Source of the DNA: Amblyomma americanum | Taxonomy: Eukaryota; Arthropoda; Arachnida; Ixodida; Ixodidae | DNA: 64,000 bases | NCBI RefSeq assembly: GCF_052857255.1 | Contig: NC_135497.1 | Span: 350,130,799 to 350,194,798 of the forward strand | Direction of reading: 5' to 3' | Shown: in pieces, positions 21,009 to 49,194 of the stretch | How positions within the stretch are numbered: the first letter of the stretch is position 1 | Layout of the letters: every line of letters starts with the position of its first letter | The notes under the pieces: generated by a model | What the model saw: only the letters and a program-made list of their open reading frames with translations | What the model was told of the DNA's origin: nothing | The model's database searches: none | Position numbers and translations under genes: made by a program

Positions 21009-21080
21009 GGTCGCATGGTGTAATGGTTAGCACTCTGGACTCTAAATCCAGCGATCTGAGTTCAAATGTCGATGAGACCT
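21009..21080 (+). tRNA. tRNA-Gln-like gene with CTA anticodon (probable pseudogene)
   Basis: 72 nt, A box TGGTGTAATGG, B-box region AGTTCAAATG. The anticodon arm is perfect (CTGGA / TCCAG) around loop CTCTAAA, giving anticodon CTA, which would read UAG, instead of CTG seen in the sister units. The acceptor has one mismatch and the T stem two, so it is probably dead. T6 terminator at 21085. Confidence 0.75.
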
Positions 21081-21084
21081 GCGC

Positions 21085-21090
21085 TTTTTT
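21085..21090 (+). terminator. Pol III T-run after tRNA-Gln
   Basis: Six T residues 4 nt after the tRNA 3' end, the normal Pol III stop. The equivalent place in the other two units also has a T-run. Confidence 0.7.
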
Positions 21091-21153
21091 ATTTTTCTCA
21101 CTTATACTGCCTTCGACATTTCTTGTGCACCTGCTTGCACCGCTTCCCCTCGT

Positions 21154-21225
21154 TTCGGCGTGGTCTAGTGGCTAGGATACCTAGCTTTCACCTAGGCGGT
21201 CCGGGTTCGATTCCCGGCGTCGGAA
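21154..21225 (+). tRNA. tRNA-Glu (TTC)
   Basis: 72 nt. Acceptor TTCGGCG pairs with CGTCGGA (two G-U), anticodon stem CCTAG/CTAGG is perfect with loop CTTTCAC (anticodon TTC), and the T arm CCGGG-TTCGATT-CCCGG is perfect. A box TGGTCTAGTGGCTAGG. Of the six tRNA-like genes here it is the only one with no defect visible. Five nt separate it from the next tRNA-Gln start. Confidence 0.9.
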
Positions 21226-21230
21226 GGTGC

Positions 21231-21248
21231 GGTCTCATGGTGTAATGG
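21231..21248 (+). repeat. tRNA-Gln 5' fragment, 5' target duplication of LINE copy B
   Basis: GGTCTCATGGTGTAATGG: acceptor strand and A box of tRNA-Gln, cut where LINE copy B begins. The same 5' sequence begins the tRNA-like gene at the other end of copy B (38001). Confidence 0.85.
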
Positions 21249-21417
21249 ATGCTTCAGCTTCCGGCCACGCTTGTGAACGGACGTATAATGCCGGGCTCCG
21301 TAGGAGCGGCTTCGGCGGCCATGTCTCGCCGCGGTAACAGGACTGCGGAAGAGGAAAGTGAATACCAGGCTTGATTACAGGGCGTTTCGTTTTAAATACA
21401 GTTTTTTTTTTTGCATG

Positions 21418-22365
21418 CTGATGTCGCGTCCGATCGTACCGTATGGAAGATTTCCGCGACGCATTGGCGGAACATTCGATGCTCCCGGATGTTACACCCT
21501 GGGGGCGTATCGCATGAGTAACGTCTGGGCCATCATTTTAAAGGATGCCGAGGCGGTAAAGCGGATTACAGGCATCGGCGAGCTACTTGAAAAAGTGTCG
21601 CTGCCTGGTGACTGACCCGGCGAATGAGGACGTGCTGCTGAAGCTGCACTAGCTTCTACACAGTGTGGCCGACGAAGAGGTGCGAGCAGCCTTCGCACCG
21701 TATGGAAAAGTTTCGGAAACTCCCGGGAGCGCTGGCGGGCACATGGCATGACAGAAAAGGGCTCAAGGACACGGTTGGTCACCCTAAAGATGAAAGCCGG
21801 CGTGAAACGCGACGACCTGCCACACCAGCTGAACGTCGGCGGTGAGTTGGCCCTTGTCGTCGTTCCTGGCAGGCCTCCCTTGTGCCTCCGCTGTCGGCGT
21901 ACCGGCCACATCCGTAAAGAGTGCCGGGTTCCACGTTGTGGAGTTTGTCGACGGTTCGGCCACGAAGATGGCCAGTGTGCACTCACTTACGCGAGCACTG
22001 CTGGACCCGGGACAAGTGAGGACTCATCTGAGCTTCTAATTGACGAGGCGGATGCGGAGGAAGCAGCTGGTTCTGCAGGGCTGAAAGTGAAACAGGATGC
22101 GCCTTCCTTGACGATTAAAACGAAGCAGAAAGTTACGGCATCCAGCGATGATAAGGCTGCTGAGAATGTCGTTGATGCTTCCTCCGAAGAAGATCATGAT
22201 TCGCAGAAAGAAACGACGAAATTTGCGTCGAAACACCTGCAGGCGGGGAGTCTCCGAGGACTGACGTCATGGGCGTCAGCCAGGAAACGGAGGCCTCAAT
22301 GGCTGGGAAACGCTCACATGAAGAGACCGTCGGTAAAAGCCGCAGTCTGGCGATGGCAACAATGA
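21418..22365 (+). pseudogene. Tx1-like ORF1, copy B
   Basis: Frames 21418-21615 and 21748-22365 correspond to ORF1 of copies C, D and E (LGAYRMSNVWAVILKDAEAV, then KLKAGVKRDDLPHQL). Two knuckles are intact: CLRCRRTGHIRKEC and CGVCRRFGHEDGQC, both C-x2-C-x4-H-x4-C. The tail is acidic then basic. A frameshift and a TGA near 21615 break it. ORF1 of LINEs coats the element RNA. Confidence 0.8.
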
Positions 22366-22665
22366 GCCGCCGCCGAAGACACCTGGGATAAGACGTTCAA
22401 CGTTAAATCCGCGGCCGAATTAATCACCTGAAACACAGCAGGCGGGGAAACCGCCTGCGTAGTTGTGTGGTGCTCTGGAAGATCTGTGTATCGGTTTTCA
22501 GCTGACTAACGTCAAGCGGCCTCAACATCCAAGCTGGGAATGTGCGCGAAATGGGGTGCAGTGGATGGACATGCTTGCGAATGTATCCCCGCTGTTCGCT
22601 GGGAGAATGTGTGCGCTCCGGATCTTCAAACGTGGAAGGCTACGTGACTGCGAAGGTGGGCAATA

Positions 22666-23200
22666 CAGGCGCCCAAATCTTTAACTGGCGTGCGCGAGCG
22701 GCGACTTTTCTGTGCGTCAGCGCCGAATGACGGGGCGAGGCTGGAAACAGTCTGAGGCTAAGCGCATGCGGACAAAGCGCGCTCAGCTGGGCCCATCGTC
22801 TGCTAGGCTGTTCCCTCTTATGGACGTCACCCCACATTATCGCACTTGAGACGATTAGGCAGCGTGAGTAGGCGAATGGTTTTGCTCGCATTTCAAATTT
22901 CGAAGATCAGCTTCGGTGCACCCAAGCAAAGAAATTAAATAAACGATAAATCACGCTCAAACAATCTATCACGCGAGAAACCAAAGAACATGGCTCGTTC
23001 GCTTGTTACCTGCTGACGTAGACGCTTTTTCATGTCTAGAAAAAAAGAGGGCGGTTGTCGACACACTGCGTTATTTAGTCTTCCGCGCGGCGGCGAAGCT
23101 GTAAGACAGCTGTGAGACCTCAGTGAAGCTGCTCTACAGGCCGTGCTCGCGGGAGCTTCTAGCTGCTACCAAAATGCCACCCCGTATACCTCAAACGAAG
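22666..23200 (+). repeat. Left TIR of the Tc1 element
   Basis: About 530 bp, inverted copy of 28866-29423 with substitutions and small gaps. It includes the transposase start (ATG at 23174) and the codons just after it. Confidence 0.8.
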
Positions 23201-23549
23201 AGAGTTCGAATTATAGGAATGCCAATATACGGCTCATCGCAGAAGGAAATTGCTGAAGCAACTGGAGTGGCTCCAGCTTCTGTGGGCAGAATAATACGTG
23301 CCTACCAGGACGAAGAACTAATTGCAGATGCTCCTCGCTGCCTCACCAGAAAAACAAGCGAAGAAGAAGATTTGCAGATTCTTGTCTGCGCTAGTGGCAA
23401 CAACAGCCACCACCACCACCACCGGTCGTTCGTGGACGTGGCTGTCCCTGTTCCCACAGGCGGGCGTGGTCTCACTGGGCGGTGACTGTTCGTATCACTA
23501 GCTTCTGATTGCTTGATTGTCTTTCGCTTTTGCAGGTCGCTAGGGGCGC

Positions 23550-23846
23550 ATGTCGACGTCCTCTCCTGGCCAGGGGAACTCCCCCTGGTCGGCCAGCCTC
23601 CCCCCTAACCAACTCCCCCTGGACGCCTTCTTTCGGGGTGGTGTCGGCACTACTCCCGTGGCCTTGGTTCCATCGAATGTTGGCGCCATTCGACTCAATA
23701 ACCCGGATGCGGTTCAGACTGCGCTACAGGCGATTACGCCTCACTTCTTAAAAATCTGTGATGTCCGGCAGTACGGCAGAGGAGGCGTGGTCCCTGAAAA
23801 CCAGGGGCCACACCTTCAACTCAGATGGACAGGAGAGACCCGCTAA
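23550..23846 (+). pseudogene. LINE ORF1, N-terminal fragment
   Basis: Starts MSTSSPGQGNSPW, Pro- and Ser-rich, no knuckle. It ends early because the rest of ORF1 and the start of ORF2 are deleted; the overlapping frame from 23758 runs through this deletion into the endonuclease. Confidence 0.5.
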
Positions 23847-24660
23847 GGTGGCAATTACCGTTTCAGTTGGAAGTTTTGTTTCCTCAACGACCCGAGTGCA
23901 CCGATGTACAGAAATCACCCCTGCGGAGGAGAGTTTCTCTAGCGTTTCCTTAGGGCTAAGGCGTGGGTCAACCCCTCGCACCAGCTCTTTAGAGCACGCC
24001 ATGTGCGGCGGTATAAATGCGCTTACCGACTGGCTTCCAAAAGCTGTGCACATTAACAAATCCATGATGCAGGCCTGGTCGGCCGACCTGCACACCACGC
24101 CTCCTCCTCCTAGTTTCCATCCCATTACTGTCGCAAATGTATATTTTCCATCTGGGGTTCATGACACACGGCCATTAGATTCCTTACTCTCTGTCAGCAG
24201 ATCACATGTGTTGCTTGTTGGGGATTTCAATTCGCATAACTTGACTTGGGGTTATCGAACAGACCAGTGCGGTTTGCGTTTATGGGATTGGGCTTGTGTG
24301 AATAACCTAAACTGTCATAACTCGGGTTTTCCGACCTTTCTCCGTGGGCACTCCCGATCAGCATTGGATTTAACGTTTTCAACCCCAGGGGTAGCAGTTT
24401 CCTCCTGGACTCCGGTTGACTCTGCAACAAACAGTGACCATTTCCCACTCACTTTTGACATTGTGTGTCCGATGACTTCTATCGGCGGATTCAGTTGCAC
24501 CCTAGTCGATTACAACAAGTTCAAAAGTTCACTCAGTTCAGAACTACACTCTTTGCCGAATTTGTCTCAGGAGAGCAGGGTGTTAGGCTTATGCTCTATT
24601 TTAGATCGGGTACGGAGGCAATTAGAGTTTACAGTGTGCGATAGCATAGGCACTTCCAGA
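23758..24660 (+). pseudogene. LINE endonuclease, N-terminally truncated
   Basis: From about 24061: TVANVYFPSG, LLVGDFNSHNLTWG (catalytic Asp/Asn), RSALDLTFS and NSDHFPLTF (SDH). The first blocks with the catalytic Glu are missing. The upstream codons (23758-24060) belong to fused ORF1 debris. A frameshift near 24650 separates it from RT. Confidence 0.75.
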
Positions 24661-26162
24661 GCCCTTGGTGGAATGCAGAATGTTCAAAGGATTATAGGCG
24701 GCGCAAGGCAGACTGGAAGAAACTTATCCATAATCAATGTCCCCGGAATTGGATCGATTATAAGTTTCTTGCAGCTACCTTCAAGCGCACAGTCGCTAGG
24801 GCAAAAGAAAAATATGATGAAGAGAATTATGACCGTCTATCAAAATCTAATAACAGACAAGCCTTGTTTCGCTTTCTGAGGTTGCCACCGCCTAACAACA
24901 TTCCCTCTAATGTGCTGACTCCAGTAGAGCTTGCCAGGTCATTAGAAGAAATTGGCAAAGGCTTGGAACACCGTTTTTCGGCTGCGCTCTCTCGCCCACA
25001 ACTGCTTGGGAATCACTATGATGATTTCCTTACTGGCTCGGTTTCTGAGCTCTCCCAGGTGATAAATCGGTTACCTTCTGCAGCTCCTGGTCCTGACCGT
25101 GTCACCTCTGCGATGATTAAAATACTTTTCGACGAATCCCCTAATGCTATATTGGAGCTGGTAAATTACTCTATTAGAACCCCATGGATCCTGGATGTAT
25201 GGCGTGTTTCCAAAATTATCCCGGTGCTTAAAAAGCCAGGCGAAGGGTTGGTCTTAGACAACATTCGACCAATTTCATTGACATCGAATCTGGTGAAATT
25301 GGTTGAACGCATGCTGTATGGACGAATCATGCCCATTATTACTGAAAAGGGACTAGTTAACCCCTGTCAGATTGGTTTCAAGCCTGGGTGCTCTATAAAG
25401 TTTGCGCATACTGACCTCGAAAGCCGTGTCCGACTAGCGCGCCGGCGTCGACAGTATGCTGCGCTGGTAACTCTAGACATCTCGAAAGCATATGACAGTG
25501 TCGAACATGGGCCTCTGATGTACAGACTACGTGCTCTGGGCTTGCCAAGTTATTTTGTGGAATGGGTGTCAGCTTTCCTGGCTGACAGAGAATTTTATTG
25601 TTGTCAACGCGGAGTTTCTACAAGGAAATTTCATCAATCTAGAGGTGTGCCTCAAGGTGCAGTTCTCTCCCCTGTTCTATTCAACCTCTTACTCAGTTCG
25701 ATTCCGACTTCCCCTGACGTGACTACGTACGTGTATGCAGACGATATAGCTTTCTTTGCTGCTGCAAGTGATTTACATTCTGTGTATATGGTTTTACAGT
25801 CATATTTAAATTCCCTTGATCGATGGTTATCTGAATTACACTTAAGTCTTAATGTAAACAAGTGCGCTTTGTTACCTTTTCCGGTTACTCAACAGGTACA
25901 CATTTCATTGTCTTATCGTCATCATGTCATTCCTCAGGTATGTTCCCTAAAGTATCTAGGGGTAACTTATGACTCCTCTCTCTATTGGCGGTCACATATA
26001 GATCAGGTTGCTGCGAAAGGGATTCGGGCGGTAGGCCTTCTGCGAAGGATGAGTAGCCCCCGCTGCGGTATGCGCAGACATGCTCTGCTGCTGATTTATA
26101 AAATGTATATCCGGCCAATCTTGGAATTAGGTTGCGTTTTGTTTTCTGTAACAGCTGCATAA
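24660..26162 (+). pseudogene. LINE reverse transcriptase, nearly intact
   Basis: The frame reads WWNAECSKDYRRRKADWKK and continues as an open frame to 26162. RT blocks: AAPGPDRVTSAMIK, NIRPISLTSNLVK, CQIGFKPGCS, LDISKAYDSVEH (Asp), RGVPQGAVLSPVLFN and YVYADDIAFF (Asp-Asp), then LKYLGVTYDS. All three catalytic Asp are present. It ends at a TAA (26160-26162) after VTAA; the next frame continues the same protein, so one nonsense codon separates RT from RNase H. Confidence 0.85.
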
Positions 26163-26210
26163 AAACTGCGCCCACTTCTGCTTTTAGAGCGAGAAGCTCT
26201 GCGCCTGTTT

Positions 26211-27437
26211 TTGGGTCTCCCTAAATACGTGGCAAACAATGTTTTGTATCTGGAAGCGCGGGTGCCGTCTCTTACTGCAAGGTTTCGCCTTTTGACAGTA
26301 CAAACGTTTTTAAAGTTTTTCGACTCGGAGCAGCATGCATTCGAGTTAATCTTCCTAGGGCAGCGAGCGGAGTTCTTGGGTGTCGGATGGTCTCGCCTTC
26401 AAACTCCCCAAATCTGTTTCGTTGAATCTTTGCTGGGCCCACTCAACGTGCGAATACCTGAAATTTTTCCGGTGCGGTCCATTCCTGCAAATGTGTCTAT
26501 CATCTACGACGACATTTATCCACGTAATGCAAAATTGCTGCCTTTCTCATGGTTAAATGGTATGTTGCAGGATTACTTGTCGACCTTCAGCTCACATGTT
26601 GCAATTGCGACTGATGGCTCGGTGTGTGCAGAAAAGGCAGGTGTAGGTATTTACTCCCAGTCCCTTGACTGGTCTTTTTCTCTCCGTCTCCAAGATTTCA
26701 CTCCTATCTATCTGGCTGAGTTTCTAGCAGTGGTTCTCGCTCTGCGCAAGGTACCAATTTCTTTATCAGCAGTAATAATAATTACGGACTCGTTATCTTT
26801 ATGCACTTCCCTTTCGGCGTCCACTGAATCGCAGCTCTTTCGGATTCTAAAATTTCTGATCCCTCCACACATCACATCACTTCGATTTCTTTGGGTTCCT
26901 GGGCACAGGGGTCTTCTATTAAATGAATCAGCTGATGGTTTAGCGAAGGCAGCCCTGAGTGGACCGATTGTTGACCCGCTTCCAACAACTGCTTACATCA
27001 CGGCGGCACGCTTTCCATGGTACATTGTAATGAACGAATTGGGCGCATCAGCGCTTACTTCCTTGGACGACTTCCAGCACCTACTGTTCCCATGGAGAAG
27101 CTCAGTCTGGCGATCGCGCAATCATGAAGTTTCCTTCACGAGGCTTGGTTGCCGAGTGCCGCAACTAAATTTTTACCTATACAGGCCTGGTCTGGCGATC
27201 TCCCCATTGTGTCCGTATTGTGCGGAGCCGGAAACAATAGAGCACTTTCTTCTTTTTTGCCGTCGATATTCATCGATTAGGAGGCGACTATTAGAAGTTC
27301 CAATACAGAATCTCAGTTTGCACCTGTCTTCTGCGTTTGTTCTGTCTCTTGGCGCTTCTATGCTTGGCCATACCAATGGGAACGTTTGCTCTGCCGTTCA
27401 AAATTATCTACTAGAATCAAAACGTCTACCTTCATGA
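26211..27437 (+). pseudogene. LINE RNase H and C-terminal finger
   Basis: IATDGSVCAEKAG (Asp), YLAEFLAVVLA (Glu), IITDSLSLC (Asp) and NESADGLAKA (Asp) give a complete RNase H active site. CPYCAEPETIEHFLLFC is a C-x2-C-x7-H-x4-C finger. In frame with the RT, interrupted only by the TAA at 26160. Confidence 0.85.
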
Positions 27438-28865
27438 GCTTTCGTCCTGCCCATCCCATTATCAGCTTCTGTATTTCGGTTTTTACAACCACTTATAGTA
27501 ATCCCTACCCCTTCTTTGCCTAAAGTTTAGTTTGTATGACCCCCCTAACCTCCTGCATCCACCTCGGCTACGAAAACTGTGCAATCCAAATTTTGGTAGG
27601 TCATCCCATGCTTGCCACATGCAAGTGGTCATTTAAATAGTCGCCGCCTGGTTATGGCCAATCCCCCTTGTGGGTATGTGCCACTGTGTGAGGTCAACAA
27701 CAACAACAACAATAGTGACAACCCGTTCATCACAGCGGGGGAAATAAGGGCTGCCCTCGGCTTTAATGTGTCACATGAATTAATTAGGCAAAGGCTAAGG
27801 GAAGCAGGAATCAGAAACAGGACAGCTGCGCAGAAGCCTCTACTTTCCGACAGTGCCAGAGCAAAAAGGCTAGCCTTTGCTCACGAACATCTCCAATGGA
27901 CCGTCGACGATTGGCGAAACGTTGCGTTTACAGATGAGAGCACCTTCTGCTCTCAGTGGGACCAGAAACAAAGTATACCGGCCAATAGCAAAAAGGTAAA
28001 TCAATAACTTTTGCCTTTTCTCTCGTGGCTTCTTTTATTATCCACGATAATACTATATTGCTACCCACTCTCATTAATTCGCATTAAATGCTGCTTTTTT
28101 TAAGGTATGATCCCCGTTACATCTAAGACGTCAAGGCAAGTGGCCGAACATCTGTGAACGTGTGGGGGGTCATCACGAAGGATGGCCTCGGGCCTCTTCA
28201 CCGCATTGATGGTCGGCTGTGCTCCACAACATATATTGCCATCATTGACCACCAGCTACTTCCTCACGTGCTGGATGGATCCTACAGAGATGGAGATTTC
28301 CTGCTACAACATGATCTTTCACCGATCCACACGGCGCACGCAGTGACCGCAAACCTCGAAAACCTTGGAGGGATGACGCTAGATTGGCATTTCAAGGGCG
28401 CAGATATGAACATTATTGAAAATGTTTGGGGCATTTTAAAAGCCAACATGTCAAAAATGGGCCTCCATACCGCTACTCCGTATGAGTTGTGGGAGGCCAC
28501 CAGCAGACAGTGGGAAGAGCTGAAGGCCGACAGCGACCTTGTGCCGGCGCTCTACGACTCCTTGCCACGACGCATGTCTTGCTGTGGTCGGGAATGGCGG
28601 TGACTTCCTCCGCTACTGAACGACCTGTGTGCGCCCATTATTGGTCACACCATTGCTTTTGTTTCTTAGCATTTCAGCAAGAATGAAGCGCAGAGTAAAA
28701 TGGTTTACGATCTCAATTTTCGTTCTTTCACTGAGATGCATGCAAAGTGGTGCAATATTCTTAAGACTAACACAGAATATTTCTTACAGTCCTCACAAAT
28801 AATGCGCGAGACAGGTCGAGTTTTTAGCAGCGTCTCTTGCGATTACATCCTGTTTTGTTTGTCTT

Positions 28866-29423
28866 TCCCCTTGACGTATACGGGGAGCATTTTGATAACT
28901 GTCGCAAACTGCCGTGAACGCGTCGTGCAGAGCAGCATCACTGAAGTTTCCCCACAGCGGTCTTCAAGCTTCACAATTTCTTTCTCTATGGCTTCACCTC
29001 CGCTCGGAAGCATATAGAACGCAGTGTGTTGAAAACTGCCATTTTTTTCTAGACATGCAAAACAGCATTTACGTCAGCAGGTAACAAACGAACGAGCCAT
29101 GTTCTTTGGTTTCTCGCGTGATAGATCGTTTGAGCGTGAGTTATCGTTTATTTAATTTCTTTGCTTGGTTGCAACGACGCTGATCTTCGAAATTTGAAAT
29201 GCGAGCAAAACCATTGCCTACTCACGCTGCCTAATTGTCTCAAGTGCGATAATGTGGGGCGACGTCCATAAGAGGGAACAGACTAGCAGACGATGGGCCC
29301 AGCTGAGCGCGCCTTGTCCGCATGCGCTTAGCCTCAGGCTGTTTCCAGCCTGGCTTCGGCATACGGCGCTCACGCACAGAAAAGTCGCCGCTCGCGCACG
29401 CCAGTTAAAGGTTTGGGCGCCTG
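28866..29423 (-). repeat. Right TIR of the Tc1 element
   Basis: Inverted copy of 22666-23200, ending GGTTTGGGCGCCTG before TA. It includes a copy of the transposase start region in reverse. Confidence 0.8.
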
Positions 29424-29450
29424 TACGTCTACTGGTGACGCTTCTAACGC

Positions 29451-30174
29451 ATGGCGCATAAGCTAAAGACACTACTTCTCGTAACTACTTTGAATGTCAG
29501 AGGGCTAGGAGCTAGAAGGCGACAATGCCAGCTTAATCGGCTCCTTTTGGATAACAATATAGATATAGTAGCTTTGCAAGAGCCAAAGATAGACTCAAGA
29601 GCATACGAACGCATGGTGTCTTCTTTTCAAAAATACACTGATGTGTTTGTATGACATTCCGTTAGTGCATCTGGTGGATGCTTGCTACTTATTCGTAATT
29701 CGTTAGAAATAAGCGACGAGTCAGTGTTCGCCTGTGAAAGCGGTCGTCTTTTGGTAACTAATTTCACTTTCTCGAATTTATGTTGGCGTGTTGTATGTTT
29801 GCATGCTCCTAATTTATAAAGCAAGCGTCAATTGTTTTTTAATGATCTTGAGCCATGGTTGCAAAGCGACAAGATTTTGCTTGTACTCGGTGACAACAAT
29901 TGTGTGTGCACAGCTGTCGACATAGTGAAACGCAGATCGCGAAAAGACAAAAGCTCCGAACTCCTGAAGACATTAGTGCATGATTACGGTCTTGAGGATG
30001 TTGGCAGCGTGTTCTCCACTGGAAACCAGCCAGAATTCACGCACTTTCAGCGGGATAGTCACGCTAGACTCGACAGTATGTACGTAGCAGTCGATCATGT
30101 GCCCCTCAACTCTGAGTACACTGTGAAACTTGTGTCTTTCAGTGACCAGTGCCTAGTGAGTGCGACTTTTTGAA
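29451..30174 (+). pseudogene. Tx1-like ORF2 endonuclease, copy B
   Basis: TLNVRGLGARRRQCQLNRLL, VALQEPKID (Glu), then a TGA after TDVFV, then SASGGCLLLIRNS. LVLGDNNCVC replaces the usual GDFN, HARLDSMYV follows, and SDQCLVS stands where SDH is expected, so the catalytic His is lost. AP-type endonuclease that would nick the tRNA target. Confidence 0.8.
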
Positions 30175-30330
30175 TGAAGAAAAAAAAATCTAGCTTCAAC
30201 TGGCATCTATGGAAACTGGACGCAAAAATTCTTGACAATGAGGAGTTTCTTTCGGAAGTTGCAACCGAGATTAAAAAGCGGCTTGCTGCGTACCCAAAAG
30301 TTTTACAGCTGAATAGGATGGCTTCAAAGA

Positions 30331-38220: not shown

Positions 38221-38225
38221 GGTGC

Positions 38226-38243
38226 GGTCTCATGGCGCAATGG
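38226..38243 (+). repeat. tRNA-Gln 5' fragment, 5' target duplication of copy C
   Basis: GGTCTCATGGCGCAATGG, then the LINE 5' end. Same cut point as at 21248 and 42541. Confidence 0.85.
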
Positions 38244-38829: not shown

Positions 38830-39017
38830 GTCTTAGACTGTTGTATTTCTGGGCATGTGCGCGAGTGACGTCAGGTCATGTGACTTTTTAAATATAAATG
38901 TCGGTTTTTTTCTGAATAAAAAATAGTTGTGAGTCAGCGCTCGTCCGTGTGGTTTCCTTCTTCTTTGTCTTCCGTCCCTTTCGCGCTGTTTTTTCCACCC
39001 AAAATGAACGCATACCA

Positions 39018-39821
39018 ACTCGCCCAACTTTCCATTCTACTACAGTTGAAGATTGCCTCGACGCGCTCGCTGCGCTTTCTCTCATGCCTGAAGTTATCGC
39101 CCTGGGGGCGTACCGCATGAAGCATGTGTGGGCCGTGACGTTTAAGGACGCCGATGCTGTGAAGAAAATCGTCACCGCGGGTGACCTGCAAGTGAAAAAC
39201 GCCCGGTGTCTTGTCATTGATCCTGCCAATCGAGATGTCGGGATGAAGCTTCACTGGCTCCTTCACAGTGTACCGGACGACGATGTGCGGCTCGCCTTCG
39301 CAGCATTCTGGAAGGTGACCGACATTTCAAGGGAGTGGTGGCGAGCACTGGGCGTCTCCGACAAGAGCTCAACAACGAGGATTGAGACCCTTAAGTTGAA
39401 TGCTGGTGTTCAGCTTGATGACCTTCCGCACCAGTTGAGCGTCATCGGCAAGTTGGCTCTTGTGGTTGTGTCTGGCAGGGCTCCGCTTTGCCTGCGCTGC
39501 AGCGGCACAGGTCATATTCGGCGTGAGTGTCGCATTCCTCGCTGCGGAACCTGCCGACGGTTCGTTCACCAGGAAGGCCAGTGTCCTCGCACTTATGCCA
39601 GTGTAACCGGCCCTGGGAATGGTGACAGGTCTTCCGAGCTATACATGGATGAGGCTGATGCAGAAGAGGCCTCGCAGGCAGAAAAACCCGCTGCGGTACT
39701 CACGAAACCCACGCTTTATGTTCAGGTAGCGGCAGAGCCTTGCCCCAGCGTCAGCACAATCCCAAGTTTGAAGAAAGATGCTGGGCAAGAAGCGAGTGCG
39801 GCAAAGGAGGTCACACTTTAA
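39018..39821 (+). pseudogene. Tx1-like ORF1, copy C
   Basis: ALSLMPEVIALGAYRMKHVW, DADAVKKIVTAGDLQVKNAR and LKLNAGVQLDDLPHQL match the other ORF1 copies. Knuckles CLRCSGTGHIRREC and CGTCRRFVHQEGQC are intact. The reading frame runs back to 38949, but those codons are foreign. It ends at TAA 39819-39821 where the deletion joins ORF2 material. Confidence 0.8.
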
Positions 39822-41251
39822 CTGGCATGTGTGCAAGTTCAACGCGGAACTTTTAGAAAACGAAAATTTTGTAAAAGTGACCACGAAGGAACATAAAAAA
39901 CTACTTTCAGCGCAGCACTAAAGTTATGCAGTTGAATTAGGGGAGAAGAAACAGCGAGTAAAGAATATGGCGATGGAAAATGCCAGTACACTTCGATATG
40001 CTGAGAAGCAAAAAAGAGAAAGAAATGCACAAAGAACTCGATTCTTTGCTTAGCATGGATATCTTTCATCCAGGAATGTACACGAGTGAAATAAAACGTG
40101 AAAGGCAGATTGAATCCCTTGACACTGATAGGTACAAGGCAGCACTGATCCGGGCGAGGTCTGAAACTCTGGGCGGGAGACACGCCAACAAAACGAGCGC
40201 TGTCCGACAAGAAAAGATACTCGAATCAAAACAAAATACGAAATACCCGCTGAGATCAAAAACGTGATTTTAGAACACTACAAAGAATTGCTTGGCCACA
40301 CACGCGAAGTGAAAGACGACTTCCTGACCGACTTTTTGCACCAAATGCCAAAACTTCATGGTGAAGTCAGAACACGTCTCGATCAACCCATTACTTTGGC
40401 TAAAATTGAACAAGCAATCGACGAACTGCCAAAAGGAAAGTCGCCAGGACCTGATGGCCTAGGCGCTGCATTCTACAAAGCATTTAAGCTCCCGGTCGCC
40501 CACATTCTGCTCAGAGTGCTAGTCGAAGCATATGAGCGTAAGCAAGTTCCTCTGTCATTTACCAGCTCGCACATTGTTTTAATTCCAAAGTTTGAGGATC
40601 CAGAAAAACTCTTGTTGGTAGGGTCTAATCACCCGATAAGCCTCACCAACGTGGATTACAAAATATTCATGAAAGTACTGGCCAAAAGGCTACAAAGAGT
40701 GATAGCAAATCTAGTTGGGCCACACCAGACGTGCCGCATTAAAGGCCACAGCATCGCAACAAACGTACACGTTGTACGGACAGTTTTTGAATGCGGTGAC
40801 GTGGCAATGATGCAACTGAACCCCGCCAATGCCTTCGACCGGGTTTCGCATGACGCCCTGTTTCTGTTACTGGAACACTCAAACGTTGGCCGCGTCTTGG
40901 AGGGCGTTAGAATGGCGTATGCGAACTGCACGACGAGAATTATTGTTCATGGGGAGCTCACTGATAGTAATCGCGTGAGATCGTCACTAAGACAAGGCTG
41001 CCCTTTGTGATTCTTATTGTTTGCAGCCTATCTCGAGCCTTTGTTTGGCGATCATAAATACCGACCGTATAAATGGTTTTAGGCTACAGTCAGCGCATGT
41101 GAAAATACTAGCGTACGCAGATGACATTGCTCTGTTTTGTTCGTACAGAGAAAGTGTTCAAGAAACTACGACTGTTGTGGAAAAATTCTGTCAACAGACA
41201 GGGTGCAAAGTGAACTGGGAAAAGAGAGCTGGGTTTTGGCACGGCGACTAG
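39822..41251 (+). pseudogene. Tx1-like ORF2 linker and reverse transcriptase, copy C
   Basis: FNWHVCKFNAELLENENF marks the post-endonuclease linker. 40264-41010 gives LPKGKSPGPDGLGAAFYKAF, TNVDYKIFMKVLAKRLQ, CRIKGHSIATN and NAFDRVSHDALFLLLE. After a frameshift at 41010: ILAYADDIALFC and NWEKRAGFWHGD. All RT Asp remain. Breaks are few, so this RT is one of the better preserved in the family. Confidence 0.8.
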
Positions 41252-42416
41252 GACGTCACACCTCAGCACTTTTCACGTTTGCAATGGTCGAACTTGCCGA
41301 CTCAGTATCTGGGCGTGCCAATCGATTCATACCGTGATCCCACCCACTGCTGGGGCAACGAAGCGGAGAGGGCGAGAGAGAAGACAAATGAATGGCAAGG
41401 CAAACCACTGTCAATGTTTTCGCGTGCTTATGTGTGTAATGTGTTCCTTGTTGCCAAGATATGGTATGTCATGAATGTGCTTTCCGCTGCTCGGGTTAGC
41501 ATCCAGAAAATAAACCACGTCTTTGCAGTTTTCATGTGGTCATCAACGTGAGAAAAATGTCGCCGAACAAATTTGTTTCTTCCAATAAAGGCTGGTGGGT
41601 TGGGGCTTGTGCATTATTTTTGCGACAGGTTGTTTCACGCTATTTTTTTCTTCGTGACCAGGGCGACGCCTTCTTGCGGACAGTCATCCAGCCACGACTG
41701 CAAAAAAGGCTCCCTCAGTTTGTGGTCTCCTCCAGTGAGAATATGGGTGGCGCAGTGACAGGTTACATGCGCGAAGTAGTCCGGTCGTACAGAATGTTGC
41801 ACGCGCGTTTTTCAATGAACTACTTGAGCAATGTGTGCAAACGGAAACTCTATAAGGATCTTGTGGATGTGATGATTCCATTGCCAGTGTACCGTTTACC
41901 GCACCGTGGAGGCCCTGGACAAGATGTCTTATAACGTGTGAAAAGGATGCCACTTAGACCCTCAGTTAAAACTTTCTTCTTTAAGTTACATTCCAACACA
42001 CTCCCAGTTAAAACTTGATTGCATGAAAACGGCATTTTAGTTCCTTTGACAAAAAACTGCCCTCTTTGCAAGAAGCCTGAAACAATAGAGAACGTCTTTC
42101 TGGACAGTTGGGACCCAATCTTTCATTGGGACGTCCTCCAGAGAACACTGAAAAAGAACTTCCTTTAGACCCATCTGGGATTCGGTTAGTACCAGTTGAA
42201 AGTGAGGGCATACCTTTGGATTTAATCATGCTCCTGGGCCTCCACAGCCTGTGGAAAACGAGGATGCAAATTCGACATGCAGATCACAATACACGTCCCG
42301 AGCGCGAAAACTTCATAGAAAGGGTGGTGCTCCTTAGAGAAGTATACAGCGCACAGCTCGATCCACCTGAGTGGATTACCTCACTGGACGAACTTGTGTG
42401 TTTGAAGAGATTTTAA
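41252..42416 (+). pseudogene. Tx1-like ORF2 thumb and C-terminal finger, copy C
   Basis: LQWSNLPTQYLGVPIDSYRD, WQGKPLSMFSRAYVCNVFLV, MREVVRSYRMLHARFSMNYL, then NCPLCKKPETIENVFLDSWD, in which the finger His is Asn and the last Cys is Ser. The end reads PPEWITSLDELVCLKRF and stops at TAA. Several frameshifts. Confidence 0.8.
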
Positions 42417-42509
42417 ACCTTTCGTGATAACCAACGTGTCGCTGTCGCATTTTAAAATTTATGTGAAAATTGTTTTGTTTCTATGTCAAATTATGCAATA
42501 AAGAAAAAG

Positions 42510-42541
42510 TTTCATGGCGTAATGGTTTCATAGTGTAATGG
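42510..42541 (+). repeat. Two tRNA-Gln 5' fragments between LINE copies C and D
   Basis: TTTCATGGCGTAATGG and TTTCATAGTGTAATGG in tandem, 16 nt each. The first is the 3' flank of copy C, the second the 5' flank of copy D. Nothing else lies between the two elements. Confidence 0.85.
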
Positions 42542-42821
42542 ATTCCACTTCCAGCCACCGAGCGTGACGGACGTGTAATGACTGGCTCCGTCAGAGCGGC
42601 TACAGCGGCGATATCTGGCCGCGGAAACAGGGATTTCACATCGAGAAACGATGATCAGGTCGTACTTCCTAGTCTGCCAACAGGGCGTTTTGTTTTGAAT
42701 ACTCTTTTTCTGATGAAGAAAACATACACTCGCCAAGGTTCAAAGAAAATAAGAATGAATTGACGTTTCGGCGCCCGTACGGGTGCCTTGATCACAAAGA
42801 AGCGAAGGACGGGCAGGTGAG

Positions 42822-45050
42822 CTATATATGGGCAGTTTTTTGAAGGGTGCGCAGGTATATCTCTGGGAGATTGCCACGGGTCCGGTTAATCGTGTTTGGC
42901 GTGGATTGAATGCACAATGATTCTATGAGAAGGCGTTTTGGTAATGATTTTTCCTTTGCAATTACACGTGCTGCGTCCCAGTCGATCGTATGGCCAGTTT
43001 CTTGATGATGTTGCGCCAAAGCGTTTGAGATAGATTTTCCTTTGGCGACGTCATTTTGGTGCTGTTTGAGCCTTGTCTTAAATTTGCCTGTTTCTCCGAT
43101 ATAGGAAGCGTCGCAATCATGACAGGGGATCTTGTAGATCACGCCTGGAAAGATATCGATGTCAAGAGGGTCCTTGACTCGCAAGAGTCGTTGCCGAAGT
43201 TTGCACGACGGGACGTGGGCCACATGAATGTTATAATCTGAAAAGATGCGAGCAAGGTTCTCACTCACACCGTGGGCATACGGAATCGGCACCCGCTTCT
43301 TTGCGCATGCGTCAGTTCGGATAGTCGGAGCAGAGGCGCGTCGTTCCTGGGATCGTAGTATTTGGGCTGGGTAACCGTTCCGTATCAGGTCTTGCCTGAC
43401 CTGTTTCACTTCTGCTGCTCTGCGCTTAGGACTTGAGCATATCCTAAATGCGCGGTTGAACAGAGACGCCGCGACTGAGCGCTTGTGCCCGATGGGATGA
43501 GATGACTGAAAGTTTAGGTACCTTCCGGTGTGAGTGGGTTTACGATAGACGGTGGTTTGCAGAGAATGCGGTGAGCGTTCCACGAGGACGTCGAGGAAAG
43601 CGATGTGGCCATCCACTTCCTCCTCTAGGGTGAACTGAATGCTTTGCTGGAACGTGTTGAGGTGCGCTAGAAACCTGTGTACGTCTGGCCGGTTGATGAC
43701 AGAGAAGCAGTCATCGACATAGCGTACAAAAAACTGCGGTGGGGGGTCGAATGAGGCAAGTGCTGCGGATTCTATTGATTCTAAGGCAAGGTTAGCACAT
43801 ACTACAGAAACTGAGGCACCCATGGCTGTTCCGAAAGTCTGTCTGTAGAAGTTCTTGTTGAAGGTGAAATAAGTATTCGAGAGGCAGAATTTTAGGAGTC
43901 GGCAGAGGTCGTCGGCTTCAATCGGGGTTCGTTCAGGCAAAGTCGTGTCTTCGTTCAGGGCTTTCTTGCAACACTCCACCGCAAAATCCACAGGCACAGA
44001 TGTGAACAGAGACTTCACATCGAAAGAAGCCATTACTTGGGTGTCGTCAATGGGCACATTCTTCAGCTTCTCGACGAAGTCGCTTGCATTCCGGACGTGC
44101 GTGGCGGTTTTTCCCGCTAGAGGGGCCAGCACCCGGTGAAGGTAGCCAGAGAGCTTGTTCAACGGGGACCGTGTAAAGTCCACAATTGGACGGAGCGGTG
44201 TGCCCTTCTTGTGCACTTTTGGTACGCCGTAGATGGCAGGAGCGGCGCCATTGTGACACAGTAGCTTGTTGTAGATATATTGACCGTCGGATGGGGGGAC
44301 GTATTTGAATACATCAGCGAGAAGCTTCTGAAGTTCAGCTTCTATCTTTCTGGTCGGGTCCCGGTTTATCTTTGTATAGGTATTTTTGTCTTCCAAAAGT
44401 GCCGACATCTTTTTTATATATTCAGTCCGATCTAGCACCACGGTGGCGTTCCCCTTGTCGGCCGGAAGGATCACGACTGCCTCATTCTTTTGTAATCTTT
44501 TGAGGGCTTCCTTTTCAGGGCGTGGGAGTGCGCTGTCTTTTTCTTTTCGTAACTTTGAAAGTGCTCCGATGGCACGAGAACGTGCTTGGTAGCGTAGGCT
44601 GGCGTCAATCTTTCGCACTGCTAGCTCAACGGCACATGTCATGCTTTTCGCATCAGGGACGGGTCCAGTGTTGAAGTTGAGTCCCTTGTTAAGAAGCGAG
44701 AGTTCAGCATGGTCTAGCTTGTACGAAGACAGGTTGTGTACGCAAGAGGTTGCTGTCTCTTCTGTCTGCCGCCCTAGGAGCAACCGGAACTTCGTTTCTT
44801 GATTCTGCTGTCTTTGTTCCTGAGTGTTCGCTGCCACACTGTTCGCGTAGAGCAGGACATCAAAGGCGTCCATAGCTAGGGTACGTTCTAGTGCCTGTTG
44901 AGCGAAGAAGATGTCGTTCTCCAGACGCCTAATCGTTGATCTTGTCTCCAGAATTCTCGCTTGTAGTAGAAGTTTTTCGGCTCGAGCGATAACATTTTCC
45001 CCAAACGGGGTACATACCAGAATTGGTAGACGCATGGACTTCGGGACCAA
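42822..45050 (-). CDS. Penelope-like protein: RT + GIY-YIG endonuclease, intact frame
   Basis: 742 codons without a stop. Residues ~1-200 are the N-terminal domain, with PADKGNATVVLDRTEY near 205. RT core: GVPKVHKKGTPLRPIVD, ASFDVKSLFTSVPV (first Asp), TFGTAMGASVSVVCANL and FVRYVDDCFSV (YVDD near 445). The last ~105 residues carry a GIY-YIG nuclease, VIYKIPCHDCDASYIGETGK, with the CxxC insertion known from Penelope elements. RT copies the element RNA and the nuclease nicks the target. The true start may lie upstream, since the frame ends at the junction with the opposite copy. It is the best candidate for an active TE protein in this window. Confidence 0.9.
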   Translation of the reverse strand: MVPKSMRLPILVCTPFGENVIARAEKLLLQARILETRSTIRRLENDIFFAQQALERTLAMDAFDVLLYANSVAANTQEQRQQNQETKFRLLLGRQTEETATSCVHNLSSYKLDHAELSLLNKGLNFNTGPVPDAKSMTCAVELAVRKIDASLRYQARSRAIGALSKLRKEKDSALPRPEKEALKRLQKNEAVVILPADKGNATVVLDRTEYIKKMSALLEDKNTYTKINRDPTRKIEAELQKLLADVFKYVPPSDGQYIYNKLLCHNGAAPAIYGVPKVHKKGTPLRPIVDFTRSPLNKLSGYLHRVLAPLAGKTATHVRNASDFVEKLKNVPIDDTQVMASFDVKSLFTSVPVDFAVECCKKALNEDTTLPERTPIEADDLCRLLKFCLSNTYFTFNKNFYRQTFGTAMGASVSVVCANLALESIESAALASFDPPPQFFVRYVDDCFSVINRPDVHRFLAHLNTFQQSIQFTLEEEVDGHIAFLDVLVERSPHSLQTTVYRKPTHTGRYLNFQSSHPIGHKRSVAASLFNRAFRICSSPKRRAAEVKQVRQDLIRNGYPAQILRSQERRASAPTIRTDACAKKRVPIPYAHGVSENLARIFSDYNIHVAHVPSCKLRQRLLRVKDPLDIDIFPGVIYKIPCHDCDASYIGETGKFKTRLKQHQNDVAKGKSISNALAQHHQETGHTIDWDAARVIAKEKSLPKRLLIESLCIQSTPNTINRTRGNLPEIYLRTLQKTAHI

Positions 45051-45057
45051 CCCATTT

Positions 45058-45984
45058 GACCCCCCACCGCAGTTTTTTGTACGCTATGTCGATGACTGCT
45101 TCTCTGTCATCAACCAGCCAGACGTACACAGGTTTCTAGCGCACCTCAACACGTTCCAGCAAAGCATTCAGTTCACCCTAGAGGAGGAAGTGGATGGCCA
45201 CATCGCTTTCCTCGACGTCCTCGTGGAACGCTCACCGCATTCTCTGCAAACCACCGTCTATCGTAAACCCACTCACACCGGAAGGTACCTAAACTTTCAG
45301 TCATCTCATCCCATCGGGCACAAGCGCTCAGTCGCGGCGTCTCTGTTCAACCGCGCATTTAGGATATGCTCAAGTCCTAAGCGCAGAGCAGCAGAAGTGA
45401 AACAGGTCAGGCAAGACCTGATACGGAACGGTTACCCAGCTCAAATACTACGATCCCAGGAACGACGCGCCTCTGCTCCGACTATCCGAACTGACGCATG
45501 CGCAAAGAAGCGGGTGCCGATTCCGTATGCCCACGGTGTGAGTGAGAACCTTGCTCGCATCTTTTCAGATTATAACATTCATGTGGCCCACGTCCCGTCG
45601 TGCAAACTTCGGCAACGACTCTTGCGAGTCAAGGACCCTCTTGACATCGATATCTTTCCAGGCGTAATCTACAAGATCCCCTGTCATGATTGCGACGCTT
45701 CCTATATCGGAGAAACAGGCAAAATCAAGACAAGGCTCAAACAGCACCAATATGACGTCGCCAAAGGAAAATCTATCTCAAACGCTTTGGCGCAACATCA
45801 TCAAGAAACTGGCCATACCATCGACTGGGACGCAGCACGTGTAATTGCAAAGGAAAAATCATTACCAAAACGCCTTCTCATAGAATCATTGTGCATTCAA
45901 TCCACGCCAAACACGATTAACCGGACCCGTGGCAATCTCCCAGAGATATACCTGCGCACCCTTCAAAAAACTGCCCATATATAG
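45058..45984 (+). pseudogene. Penelope-like protein, 5'-truncated second copy
   Basis: Begins at FDPPPQFFVRYVDDCF and continues open to the same C-terminus (LRTLQKTAHI). Over about 310 residues it differs from the minus-strand copy at only three positions that I can find (Q/R, I/F, Y/N). It lacks the first half of RT. The open frame starts upstream (44911) in reverse-strand sequence of the partner. Confidence 0.85.
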
Positions 45985-46142
45985 CTCACCTGCCCGTCCT
46001 TCGCTTCTTTGTGATCAAGGCACCCGTACGGGCGCCGAAACGTCAATTCAGTCTTATTTTCTTTGAACCTTGGCGAGTGTATGTTTTCTTCATCAGTATG
46101 AATTTTCCCCGCCAGACGGGATTCCGTCGAACCCTAGACTTC

Positions 46143-47121
46143 ATACTCTTTTTCTGCACGTGGACATCAGTGTGCGCCCTTACAGAGTGGAAGAGTTTCG
46201 AGATCCGCTCGTTCCGCTGTCTCTCCTTCCGGAAGTTATCGCCCTAAGCGCTTATCGCATGAGCCATGTGTGGGCGGTAACCTTTAAGGACGCTGAGGCT
46301 GTGAAGAAGATTGTAAACGTCGGCGAGCTCAATGTGAAGGGTGCCCGATGCCTGGTGATCGACCCCGCCAACTATGATGTCCGAATGAAGCAGCACTGGC
46401 GGCTACAGAGCGTACCGGAAGAAGACGTGCGGCTTGCCTTCGAGTCTTTTGGGAAGGTGACCGACGTCTCAAGAGAGCCATGGCGCGCTCAAGGCGTGTC
46501 TGAAGATGGCTACGAGGCTGGTGACCCGTAAGTTAAACGCCGGCGTGAAGGTGGACGACCTGCCCCACCAGGTGAGCGTAGCCGGAGAGCTTGCGCTTGT
46601 GGTCGAGTCAGGCAGGCCTGCGCTGCTGCGGCACAAGGTATAATCGGCGAGATTGTCGGATTCCACGGTGCGGAGTTTGCCGTCGCTTCGGCCAAGAGAG
46701 CCAGTGCGCTTGAACGTACGCCAGCGTCGCAGGGCCCGTGAACAGTGAGGACACGTCTTCACTTCTCATGGAAGAGGCAGATGCAGACAATGCATTGAAA
46801 GAAGCGAGTGTTCAAGTAGCGCAGCCGTCTACGTCTACTGTTCCTCAAGCCGAACAGTTAGTGGCACTTCCCAGTAATGGAGCAACGCTTGGACAGCCGG
46901 TGGGACCTGCAGTACAAGCGGACGTTGCGCCAAAAGATGAGGCTGCAGCGCGAAAGGAATCTACACTGAGTGTCACCCATCCTGGTGCTGAGCCCATGGA
47001 CGTTCCCCCGACTGCAACCAGCCTTATGTCCGGAAAGCGTTCACATAAGGACGGCACAGGCATTGAGGCACAGCAGGACCTCAAAGATGGAGACGAGCGT
47101 CCTCCTAAACGCCAGGTATGA
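46143..47121 (+). pseudogene. Tx1-like ORF1, copy D
   Basis: VDISVRPYRVEEFRDPLVPL, LSAYRMSHVWAVTFKDAEAV and AFESFGKVTDVSREPWRAQG correspond to ORF1 of C and E. Frameshift near 46520. The knuckle region is destroyed: only SGRPALLRHKV, a stop and scattered Arg remain. The tail, SSLLMEEADADNALKEASVQ, is open from 46738 to 47121. Confidence 0.75.
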
Positions 47122-47284
47122 GGCGGGCGAGCTTTAAACCGCGGCCGAACATTCCGGTCGACTCACGGCAGGCGGGGAAACCGCCTCCGTAGCTTTATCC
47201 TGTTAAGCCCGCATTAGCGTTTGTGGGGTCGCGGTGCTTTGTGTGAGGGCAGACACTATAGGATATTGTCCATTATCTTTCCAA

Positions 47285-47701
47285 ATGGCGATTTATTTTC
47301 CAGAATCGCTTCGTGTAGCGACTTTAAACGTGCGAGGCCTCGGAACAAGAAGGCGACAGTGTCAGCTTAGTCGCCTTTTCTTAGAAAATGAGCTACACAT
47401 AATAGCCATTCAAGAAACGAAAATTGCGAGCCAAAAAACGACAGATCGCATGGTGTCCGCTTTCCGTATGCATTTTTATGTTTGCGTGTGCCACTCTGTA
47501 GGCGCCTCAGGCGGCTGTGCCCTTTTCATACGAAATAATGTCGAAATAACGGTGCAGTCACTTTTTCTTGTCAAAGCGGCTGCCTCCTGGTTGTTGACTT
47601 TCTGCATCTTGGCCTTAACTTCCGAGTTATCTGTGCATACGCTCCGAATGTGGAGTCAGAGAGAAAAGAGTTTTTCGAACGTTTCCAGAACGTTTCCTTA
47701 G
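47285..47701 (+). pseudogene. Tx1-like ORF2 endonuclease N-terminus, copy D
   Basis: Starts MAIYFPESLRVATLNVRGLG, then RRRQCQLSRLFLENELHIIA, IQETKIAS (Glu) and GASGGCALFIRNNVEI. It is cut at 47701 by the minus-strand copy E, before the GDFN block. Confidence 0.8.
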
Positions 47702-48808
47702 TTCCACGCTGGTAACGAAAACTCTTTTCCCCGTCTTGACGGGGGCGTAGTTCCCGCAGATCTCCGTTCCGGTGGGGTGGTAGTCTTTGGCTTGAAGCTT
47801 GGGCGCCGAGTCAGGCCCGTCTTTGTAGGCGGTTCCTCATTCTCGGCGTTCTCTGAAGTACCTGTCAAGATGCCGTCATCCTCACGAATACGCTTCGCCG
47901 CACCGCCGCTGCACACATCCTCACTCGCGTCCATGGGGCCTGTGTCATCCCTGGCAACGGCCCCCAAAACGTCGCCTAAGTAATTCTCTCGTTCGCTCAT
48001 TTCCCGTGCAGGAGCATGTTCATGTTGTACGGTGGGTGGTGCCTGAACAGTGTTTTCACGGTTTTCAGGCACCCGCTCAGAATTAGACGAGCTGGCCACC
48101 GCATCCGTTTCTGTGAGACCCCGTTGGGTTCCTGACGCCTCTTCGGCCTCCGCCTCATCCATTAAGTGCTCCGTGAAGCCATCATCTTTTCCAGGCCCCG
48201 CCGCACTTGCGTATGTTTGCACACACTGCCCCTTGTTATGTGCGAAGCGACGGCACAGGCTACAGCGTGGCACCTTGCAATCCCGTCGAATGTGCCCGGT
48301 CGACCTGCACCGCAAGCAAAGCGGCAGCCTTCCCGGAACAACAATAAGTGCGAGCTCACCTGAGATTCTCAGCTGGTGTGGAATGTCGTAAGTCTTGACT
48401 CCGGCCTTCAGTTTCAAGGTGACGGTACGCGTTGTGGTTCCTTTGTCCCCCACGCATTGATCCCGCCACCTTTCCTTCGTCACGTTCGTCGCATTTACGT
48501 ACGGGGACAGGGCCTCGTGCGCATCCTCCTCAGGGACGCCGTACAGCACCCAGTGAATCTTAAGCTGAAGGTATTGCTTGTTCGGATCCACGAATATACA
48601 CTGGCTGTTTTTCACTTTAACATCGCTGGCAGTCAAAAGCTACTTCGTCGCTTCGGCGCTCTTCATGGTGACAGCCCACACATGGTTCATCTGATACGCC
48701 CTCAAAGCCAGCACTTCGGGGAGCAAACCTAGACGAACCAGTGACCCGGAAATGTTCGACACGGTAAGGCCTGTACTTCGGATCAGCGTGCATAAAGCTG
48801 GCATTCAA
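47698..48808 (-). pseudogene. Tx1-like ORF1, copy E
   Basis: Starts MNASFMHADPKYRPYRVEHF, shifts frame, then LPEVLALRAYQMNHVWAVTM, a stop, and MTASDVKVKNSQCIFVDPNK open for 312 codons. Knuckles CLRCRSTGHIRRDC and CSLCRRFAHNKGQC are intact. The C-terminus is basic (RRPSFKPKTTTPPERRSAG). Longest open ORF1 in the family here. Confidence 0.85.
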
Positions 48809-48947
48809 AACAATTTTTCCTGTTGGCAGTGTTGGTAAGATGACCTGCTAATCTTCCTAACCAGCAACCAGAAACGGCCACTGGCACCGCTCCGTCGGAG
48901 CACATGATAGCACGTCAATACGCTCCGGCGTCCGGAAGTGGAATTCT
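47702..48947 (-). mobile_element. Tx1-like LINE copy E (5' end and ORF1)
   Basis: 5' end AATTCCACTTCCGGACGCCG follows a tRNA-Gln fragment on the minus strand; ORF1 follows and the copy ends right after its stop near 47700, where plus-strand copy D ends too. Confidence 0.8.
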
Positions 48948-48964
48948 CATTACACCATGAGACC
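48948..48964 (-). repeat. tRNA-Gln 5' fragment, target duplication of copy E
   Basis: Minus strand GGTCTCATGGTGTAATG directly before the LINE 5' end. Confidence 0.85.
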
Positions 48965-48969
48965 ACATC

Positions 48970-49041
48970 TGCTGATGCCGGGAATCGAACGCGGGCCTCC
49001 TGGGTGAGAGCCAGGTTTCCTAGCCCCTAGACAACGCCGGA
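48970..49041 (-). tRNA. tRNA-Glu (CTC), damaged
   Basis: 72 nt on the minus strand; anticodon stem CCTGG/CCAGG with loop CTCTCAC (anticodon CTC). One T-stem mismatch, and the 3' acceptor strand no longer pairs, so probably a pseudogene. Confidence 0.75.
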
Positions 49042-49104
49042 ACGAGAAGCGGTGCAAGCGGGTGCTCAAGAAACGCCCAAGGCAGTTTAAGTGGTGAAAA
49101 GAAA

Positions 49105-49117
49105 AAAAAAGGAAAAA
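49105..49117 (-). terminator. Pol III T-runs after tRNA-Gln
   Basis: A-runs on the plus strand, T-runs on the minus, a few nt after the tRNA-Gln 3' end. Confidence 0.6.
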
Positions 49118-49122
49118 AGCGC

Positions 49123-49194
49123 AGGTCGCATTGAGGTTTGAACTGGGATCGCTGGATTCAGAGTCCGGAGTGCTAAACATTACACCATGAGATC
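49123..49194 (-). tRNA. tRNA-Gln (CTG), damaged
   Basis: 72 nt on the minus strand, A box TGGTGTAATG, anticodon CTG in loop CTCTGAA. First anticodon stem pairs intact; acceptor and T stem have mismatches. It directly follows the tail of LINE copy F. Confidence 0.8.

Follow-up and report, generated by a model that had tools for sequence, protein, structure and literature searches.

L1-group LINEs at one position of tRNA-Gln genes in Amblyomma americanum: a candidate site-specific family in a tick tRNA array

Transposable elements that use RNA genes as landing sites include Dewa, inserting into the spacer of tRNA-Leu genes, Keno, targeting U2, and Mutsu, targeting 5S rRNA (PMC3706591), the NeSL-group families NeSL-1_TV, LIN15_SM, and LIN25_SM, specific for tRNA-Pro, tRNA-Arg, and tRNA-Glu genes, respectively (PMC4640811), the Dictyostelium element TRE5, which inserts 40–54 bp upstream of tRNA genes (PMC5911963), and the Dada DNA transposons, which occupy fixed sites inside tRNA genes (PMC3706591, PMC8869645). 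Here, a stretch of 64,000 nt from the tick Amblyomma americanum (contig NC_135497.1, positions 350,130,799 to 350,194,798 of the forward strand; hereafter the window, to which all positions refer) was analyzed for copies of a long interspersed nuclear element (LINE) found at tRNA-Gln genes. These copies quite probably represent a tick family of L1-group non-long-terminal-repeat (non-LTR) retrotransposons that is site-specific in the tRNA-Gln genes of a tandem array composed of tRNA-Glu, about 5 nt, tRNA-Gln, a T run, and a spacer.

Dewa, Keno, and Mutsu, like Tx1 itself, are members of the Tx1 clade (reportedly described by Kojima and Fujiwara 2004). Like the tick LINEs, the Tx1-clade elements combine an APE endonuclease with insertion into multicopy RNA-gene arrays, but Dewa targets the tRNA-Leu spacer, whereas the target of the tick LINEs lies inside tRNA-Gln. 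The NeSL-group families are likewise non-LTR elements with specificity for tRNA genes; they belong, however, to a lineage with a restriction-like endonuclease, in contrast to the APE domain at the N-terminus and the reverse transcriptase (RT) of L1 type encoded by the tick LINEs. The TRE5 and TRE3 elements of Dictyostelium share the L1 type and the use of tRNA genes as landing sites (PMC5911963), but the tick LINEs lie inside the gene, after nt 18, and not at the upstream distance of TRE5. R1 and R2 in the ribosomal DNA (rDNA) resemble the tick LINEs in residing at one site of a tandem RNA-gene array; they belong to other clades and target 28S, and the tick LINEs have their target gene rebuilt behind the insert. 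Dada elements also sit inside tRNA genes, but they are DNA transposons with duplications of 6–7 bp, compared with 16–18 bp for the tick LINEs. LINEs specific for tRNA genes are already known from the restriction-like endonuclease group, but among the open PMC articles listed, which do not extend to Repbase Reports, there was no APE-type LINE inside a tRNA-Gln gene, no other tRNA-Gln-specific LINE, and no tRNA-targeting LINE of ticks.

Junctions with tRNA-Gln and the host tRNA unit

The interval from 18.5 to 49.7 kb contains six or more copies of a single LINE family (E1–E6; Table 1), E1 to E4 on the plus strand and E5 and E6 on the minus strand, and all six are broken or incomplete. All four 5′ ends seen, those of E2, E3, E4, and E5 (at 21249, 38244, and 42542 on the plus strand and 48946 on the minus strand), directly follow the tRNA-Gln 5′ 18-mer GGTCTCATGGTGTAATGG, with 0, 2, 2, and 1 mismatches, respectively. 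The 3′ ends of E1, E2, E3, and E6 (at 21008, 37999, and 42507 on the plus strand and 49195 on the minus strand) each carry GCAATAAA and an A-rich tail and abut the same 18-mer, with 1, 2, 3, and 2 mismatches. One common nucleotide position, right after tRNA nt 18, is shared by 4/4 5′ ends and 4/6 3′ ends seen, with a duplication of tRNA nt 1–18 of 16–18 bp. When up to three mismatches were allowed, the 18-mer matched the window nine times, against a mean of 0.05 and a maximum of 1 in shuffled sequence; eight of these nine matches (the exception being at 17227) and all seven of those with up to two mismatches are LINE junctions. The junctions and the 16–18 bp target duplication proposed in the first-pass annotation are borne out at this locus, the matches standing far above the shuffle control and the duplication rebuilding the gene start. 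The stretch TGGTGTAATGG, which fits the box A motif TRGYNNANNNG, is retained in three of the four left fragments.

Three of the four gaps between neighboring LINE ends contain one unit made of a tRNA-Gln, a T run, a spacer, and a tRNA-Glu, which a link of about 5 nt connects to nt 1–18 of the following tRNA-Gln; the Gln-to-Gln length is approximately 222–230 bp. Both tRNAs of the plus-strand units were recognized by ARAGORN and Rfam; for the minus-strand unit, ARAGORN reported the tRNA-Glu only and Rfam neither gene, and the tRNA-Gln was seen by alignment. Joining the E2 flanks after removal of one duplication places a tRNA-Glu adjacent to a tRNA-Gln(CTG). The unit is read as a host tandem repeat in which five tRNA-Gln targets are visible, all of them occupied. 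Runs of four T are found after Gln but not in the link from Glu to Gln, so the two genes may form a single transcription unit of RNA polymerase III (Pol III). The gap between E3 and E4 is of a different kind, having no tRNA body and just two tRNA-Gln fragments 16 bp apart. If one of the two elements used the target that remained next to its neighbor, a single fragment would be expected there; the second may be a staggered cut that was filled in without an insert.

These junctions would fit target-primed reverse transcription. Because the A-tail directly adjoins tRNA nt 1, the APE endonuclease would first nick the lower strand where the tRNA gene begins; the A-rich 3′ end of the RNA would be copied from this nick, and the upper strand would be cut 16–18 nt downstream, just past box A, in the D-loop. 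With its start duplicated, a whole tRNA-Gln that includes the two internal promoter boxes would then stand downstream of the element. The first-pass annotation had placed a full tRNA-Gln downstream of each element, and this was found at three of four 3′ ends (E1, E2, and E6), the fourth, that of E3, being followed by the two 5′ fragments and then by E4. Its further proposal that insertion need not destroy the target stays plausible; against it, all three downstream tRNA-Gln copies are decayed, the signs of decay being mispaired stems and, in one case, a CTA anticodon.

Alternative explanations and separate lineages

The alternative that survives best, though we consider it unlikely, is that the elements find their site through contact with the Pol III machinery, as reported for TRE5-A, and not by recognizing the DNA sequence. 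The target is a Pol III gene with the insertion at box A, and the TRE5-A ORF1 (open reading frame 1) protein binds TFIIIB subunits (PMC5911963). Such contact does not readily account for insertion at a single point inside the gene, nor for the adjoining tRNA-Glu, also a Pol III gene, having no insertion in the window.

It is highly improbable that the LINE carries the Gln–spacer–Glu segment as an internal module, such as a tRNA-derived head or tail moving with it. The segment does occur in three of the four gaps between neighboring elements, but it is missing from the E3–E4 gap, it is common to elements only 44% alike in ORF1, and the joined E2 flanks restore a plain Glu–Gln gene pair. Moreover, conservation stops where the LINEs start. 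Pairwise identity at the three junctions is 84–85% for Gln, 70–82% for the spacer, 82–88% for Glu, and 77–91% for the link with the Gln fragment, whereas the LINE sequence reaches 42–48% in the preceding 50 nt, 51–61% in the leader, and 44–60% at the ORF1 start; that is, units 70–91% alike adjoin LINE ends 42–61% alike. By this contrast, the segment is host DNA.

Scarcely credible is a single LINE insertion into a tRNA unit followed by tandem duplication of LINE and unit together. E1 to E4 do stand head-to-tail with near-regular units between them, but divergence is much greater in the LINE sequence than in the units, and the ORF1 tree contradicts such a duplication. E5, E2–E4, and probably E1 come from distinct tick lineages in which other genera are also represented, and the 44% residue identity between the ORF1 of E5 and that of E3 indicates separate lineages at the same site. 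In the ORF1 tree, E2–E4 grouped with the Dermacentor protein P0012 (SH-aLRT 99) and E5 with the A. americanum protein P0002 (SH-aLRT 100). In the ORF2 tree, E1, a long branch, fell in a large tick clade that does not contain E2 and E3, and 24 of the 25 best listed blastp matches of its ORF2 belong to a clade other than theirs. Branch support in these two quick trees comes from SH-aLRT alone. For the ORF1 tree, 79 of 98 hits passed a minimum length of 300 aa; manual removal of ten that were fragmentary, fused, or distant and re-inclusion of P0002 gave 74 rows (70 relatives and four window copies). The 61 rows of the ORF2 tree comprise the 54 proteins of over 1000 aa among the 60 relatives P0099–P0158, three window copies, and four outgroups. 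The divergence contrast and the trees led us to reject both tandem duplication and a LINE-borne tRNA module. The least credible explanation, mere clustering of unspecific LINEs beside tRNA genes, could draw on the nested repeats that fill the region and on the copy lacking a tRNA flank (E0, below), but it is at odds with the common nucleotide position of the ends and with nine 18-mer matches where 0.05 are expected.

Site specificity for tRNA-Gln is thus the preferred reading, and the same nucleotide was hit by at least two, perhaps three, old lineages. Several observations weigh against it. All copies lie within one 31-kb stretch, and no further copy was found in scans of viral and bacterial contigs. 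The two duplications of one element are no more similar to each other than duplications of different elements; a C at position 11 is common to the left and right fragments of E3 and absent from the other fragments. The grouping of E1 with E2 and E3 was not rejected by the approximately unbiased (AU) test (p 0.184). Two 3′ ends add to those of the first-pass annotation. That of E0, a 3′ remnant of a related LINE ending near 18785, adjoins unrelated DNA with no tRNA after it, unless it was later rearranged, and that of E7, a remnant near 60.3 kb ending near 60192 on the minus strand, has a doubtful flank. A decayed tRNA-Gln in the E0 flank was considered but lacks support, as 238, 78, and 93 of 500 shuffles each reached the score of the three Gln alignments; Rfam reported nothing in this flank at E values up to 5. 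In E7 (60106–60481, minus strand), AATAAATAC and a weakly tRNA-like stretch (20.8 bits against a cut-off of 29) come after a remnant of a related ORF2 C-terminus. E7 might be another tRNA-associated insertion, but the inverted repeat around the tRNA-like stretch led us to leave it out of the argument.

The claim of a tRNA-Gln-specific family in the first-pass annotation therefore stands for this locus, where separate lineages share one tRNA-Gln position, and is qualified by E0; specificity of the whole family is an extrapolation, given one locus and this exception. A wider proposal, to which we give somewhat less than even chances, is that a tick-wide clade of L1-group LINEs has retained a specificity that predates the divergence of the hard-tick genera. 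Its target would be the tRNA-Gln D-loop, tRNA-Gln being second in a Glu–Gln transcription unit of two genes, and the clade would live in tRNA arrays as R1 and R2 do in rDNA and rebuild its target at each insertion.

Coding capacity, leader, and classification

The elements are an L1-group LINE family with an APE-type endonuclease and an ORF1 bearing two predicted RNA recognition motifs (RRMs) and CCHC knuckles. The two RRMs are predicted in ORF1 residues 36–200, with UP1-type matches (Foldseek E 2e-07); the fold comparison was limited to these residues, the only ones with high confidence in a model of mean pLDDT 67. Across 31 relatives, the C and H residues of both CCHC knuckles show little or no variation, although the Pfam zinc-knuckle model scored below cut-off. 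The predicted RRM fold followed by CCHC knuckles corresponds to the RRM-plus-CCHC type of LINE ORF1.

In intact relatives, ORF2 has approximately 1130 aa. Above Pfam cut-offs, P0099 and P0127 show the APE endonuclease, the RT, and a zinc-binding C-terminus, and P0123 the RT alone; the endonuclease model PF03372 was above cut-off in E4 (30.4 bits), P0099, and P0127 and just under it in P0123 (23 vs. 24.5). The YADD motif is invariant across ten aligned relatives. Against solved structures, the RT piece of E3 matched human L1 ORF2p at 4.2e-29 and the best R2 at 9.9e-12, and the RT of P0099 matched L1 at 1e-72 and the best R2 at 3.2e-32. An RT nearest to L1 ORF2p and an N-terminal APE endonuclease place the elements in the L1 group, and the APE domain separates them from NeSL- and R2-type elements, which have a restriction-like endonuclease and no APE domain. 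A point against this assignment is that the endonuclease piece of E4 found no match among solved structures. Membership in the Tx1 clade, suggested in the first-pass annotation, is a guess by analogy: no Tx1-named relative is among the 120 listed of 395 protein relatives, and no mention of Tx1 was found in the main text of two tick genome papers (PMC10561763, PMC12341941).

All organism-named ORF1 hits are from hard ticks. Those of ORF2 are from Ixodes species, apart from one protein of an Anaplasma metagenome-assembled genome (MAG), which is probably tick DNA, and one distant coral protein (22% identity). Plasmid matches amounted to 36 records, the five listed being group II intron reverse transcriptases with 26.8% identity, and phage matches to a single record with 24.7% identity.

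The ORF1 start codon lies 36–41 nt past the junction. The spacing from TTC to GACGT is exactly 27 nt in all four leaders (E2–E5), those of E2 and E5 beginning 2–3 nt longer than those of E3 and E4. In the insect LINEs jockey, Doc, G, I, F, SART1, and TRAS1, a downstream promoter element (DPE) at about +28 to +32 is described (PMC4748587). Full-length copies of the tick LINEs probably start with a comparable internal promoter of RNA polymerase II (Pol II), with initiator (Inr)- and DPE-like parts from +1 to +34. Such a promoter would make the copies independent of transcription of their target, with no need for read-through from the tRNA. Counted from the junction, however, GACGT starts at +29, +29, +31, and +32. 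The consensus RGWCGTG is matched by only two of the four leaders (not those of E2 and E5), and with both strands counted the window has 23 occurrences of this 7-mer, or about 1.8e-4 per position.

Organization of the window and biological meaning

Table 1. LINE copies, tRNA genes, and tRNA-Gln fragments in the window.
Feature	Position	Strand	Remarks
E0, related ORF2 C-terminus and tail	18517..18785	+	3′ flank without tRNA
E1, LINE 3′ part (ORF2 fragments, 3′ untranslated region (UTR), GCAATAAA, A-rich tail)	18933..21008	+	tblastn, sequence; 5′ part not seen
tRNA-Gln behind E1, decayed, anticodon now CTA	21009..21082	+	ARAGORN; Rfam 46.9 bits
tRNA-Glu of host unit	21153..21226	+	ARAGORN; Rfam 56.8 bits
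tRNA-Gln 5′ fragment, E2 left target duplication	21231..21248	+	
E2, LINE with ORF1, APE and RT pieces of ORF2, 3′ tail	21249..37999	+	split by several other insertions
tRNA-Gln behind E2, decayed	38000..38073	+	begins with E2 right duplication; ARAGORN; Rfam 40.4 bits
tRNA-Glu of host unit	38148..38221	+	ARAGORN; Rfam 47.7 bits
tRNA-Gln 5′ fragment, E3 left duplication	38226..38243	+	
E3, LINE without endonuclease region	38244..42507	+	palindrome splits ORF1
36-nt leader of E3	38244..38279	+	ATTC at +1, GGACGTG at +28 to +34 (putative Inr/DPE-like promoter)
Two tandem tRNA-Gln 5′ fragments between E3 and E4	42508..42541	+	16-bp period
E4, LINE 5′ part (ORF1, endonuclease start)	42542..47700	+	Penelope-like palindrome inside; truncated near 47700
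36-nt leader of E4	42542..42577	+	ATTC at +1, GGACGTG at +28 to +34
E5, LINE 5′ part with most of ORF1	47700..48946	-	joined head-on to E4
tRNA-Gln 5′ fragment, E5 left duplication	48947..48964	-	
tRNA-Glu of host unit	48971..49040	-	ARAGORN; below Rfam gathering score
tRNA-Gln behind E6, decayed	49121..49194	-	alignment only
E6, ORF2 C-terminus, 3′ UTR, tail	49195..49711	-	remainder not seen

Several copies are interrupted by other sequences. The interior of E2 at 22664–29425 is bounded by inverted arms of about 438 bp, 92% alike, and holds LINE-like and transposase-like frames of other elements. The palindrome within the ORF1 of E3 (38449–38834) has 133-bp arms that are 87% complementary, and the palindromic, probably Penelope-like element inside the ORF1 of E4 (42710–46096) has 1044-bp arms that are 99% complementary and contains a 753-aa RT-like frame. 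At 47690–47710, E4 on the plus strand and E5 on the minus strand, both cut off, are fused head-on, a rearrangement breakpoint within the tRNA/LINE array. Near E1 and E6 lie inverted copies of a repeat of about 1.3 kb (16858–18142 and 49696–50978) that are 90% identical. Other tRNA-like sequences lie within repeats at 15467–15541 (called as tRNA-Ser), 12499–12570 (minus strand), and 12020–12091; these are perhaps the tick short interspersed nuclear element (SINE) Ruka, as a candidate resemblance.

If site specificity for tRNA-Gln is true, the acquisition of sequence specificity by L1-group endonucleases could be studied on a defined target, and nature would provide a case of near-harmless insertion into an essential RNA gene. 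Should ticks in general show this specificity, their tRNA-Gln arrays would shelter LINEs over long periods much as the rDNA does, and such insertions would need to be considered when tick tRNA-Gln genes are counted.

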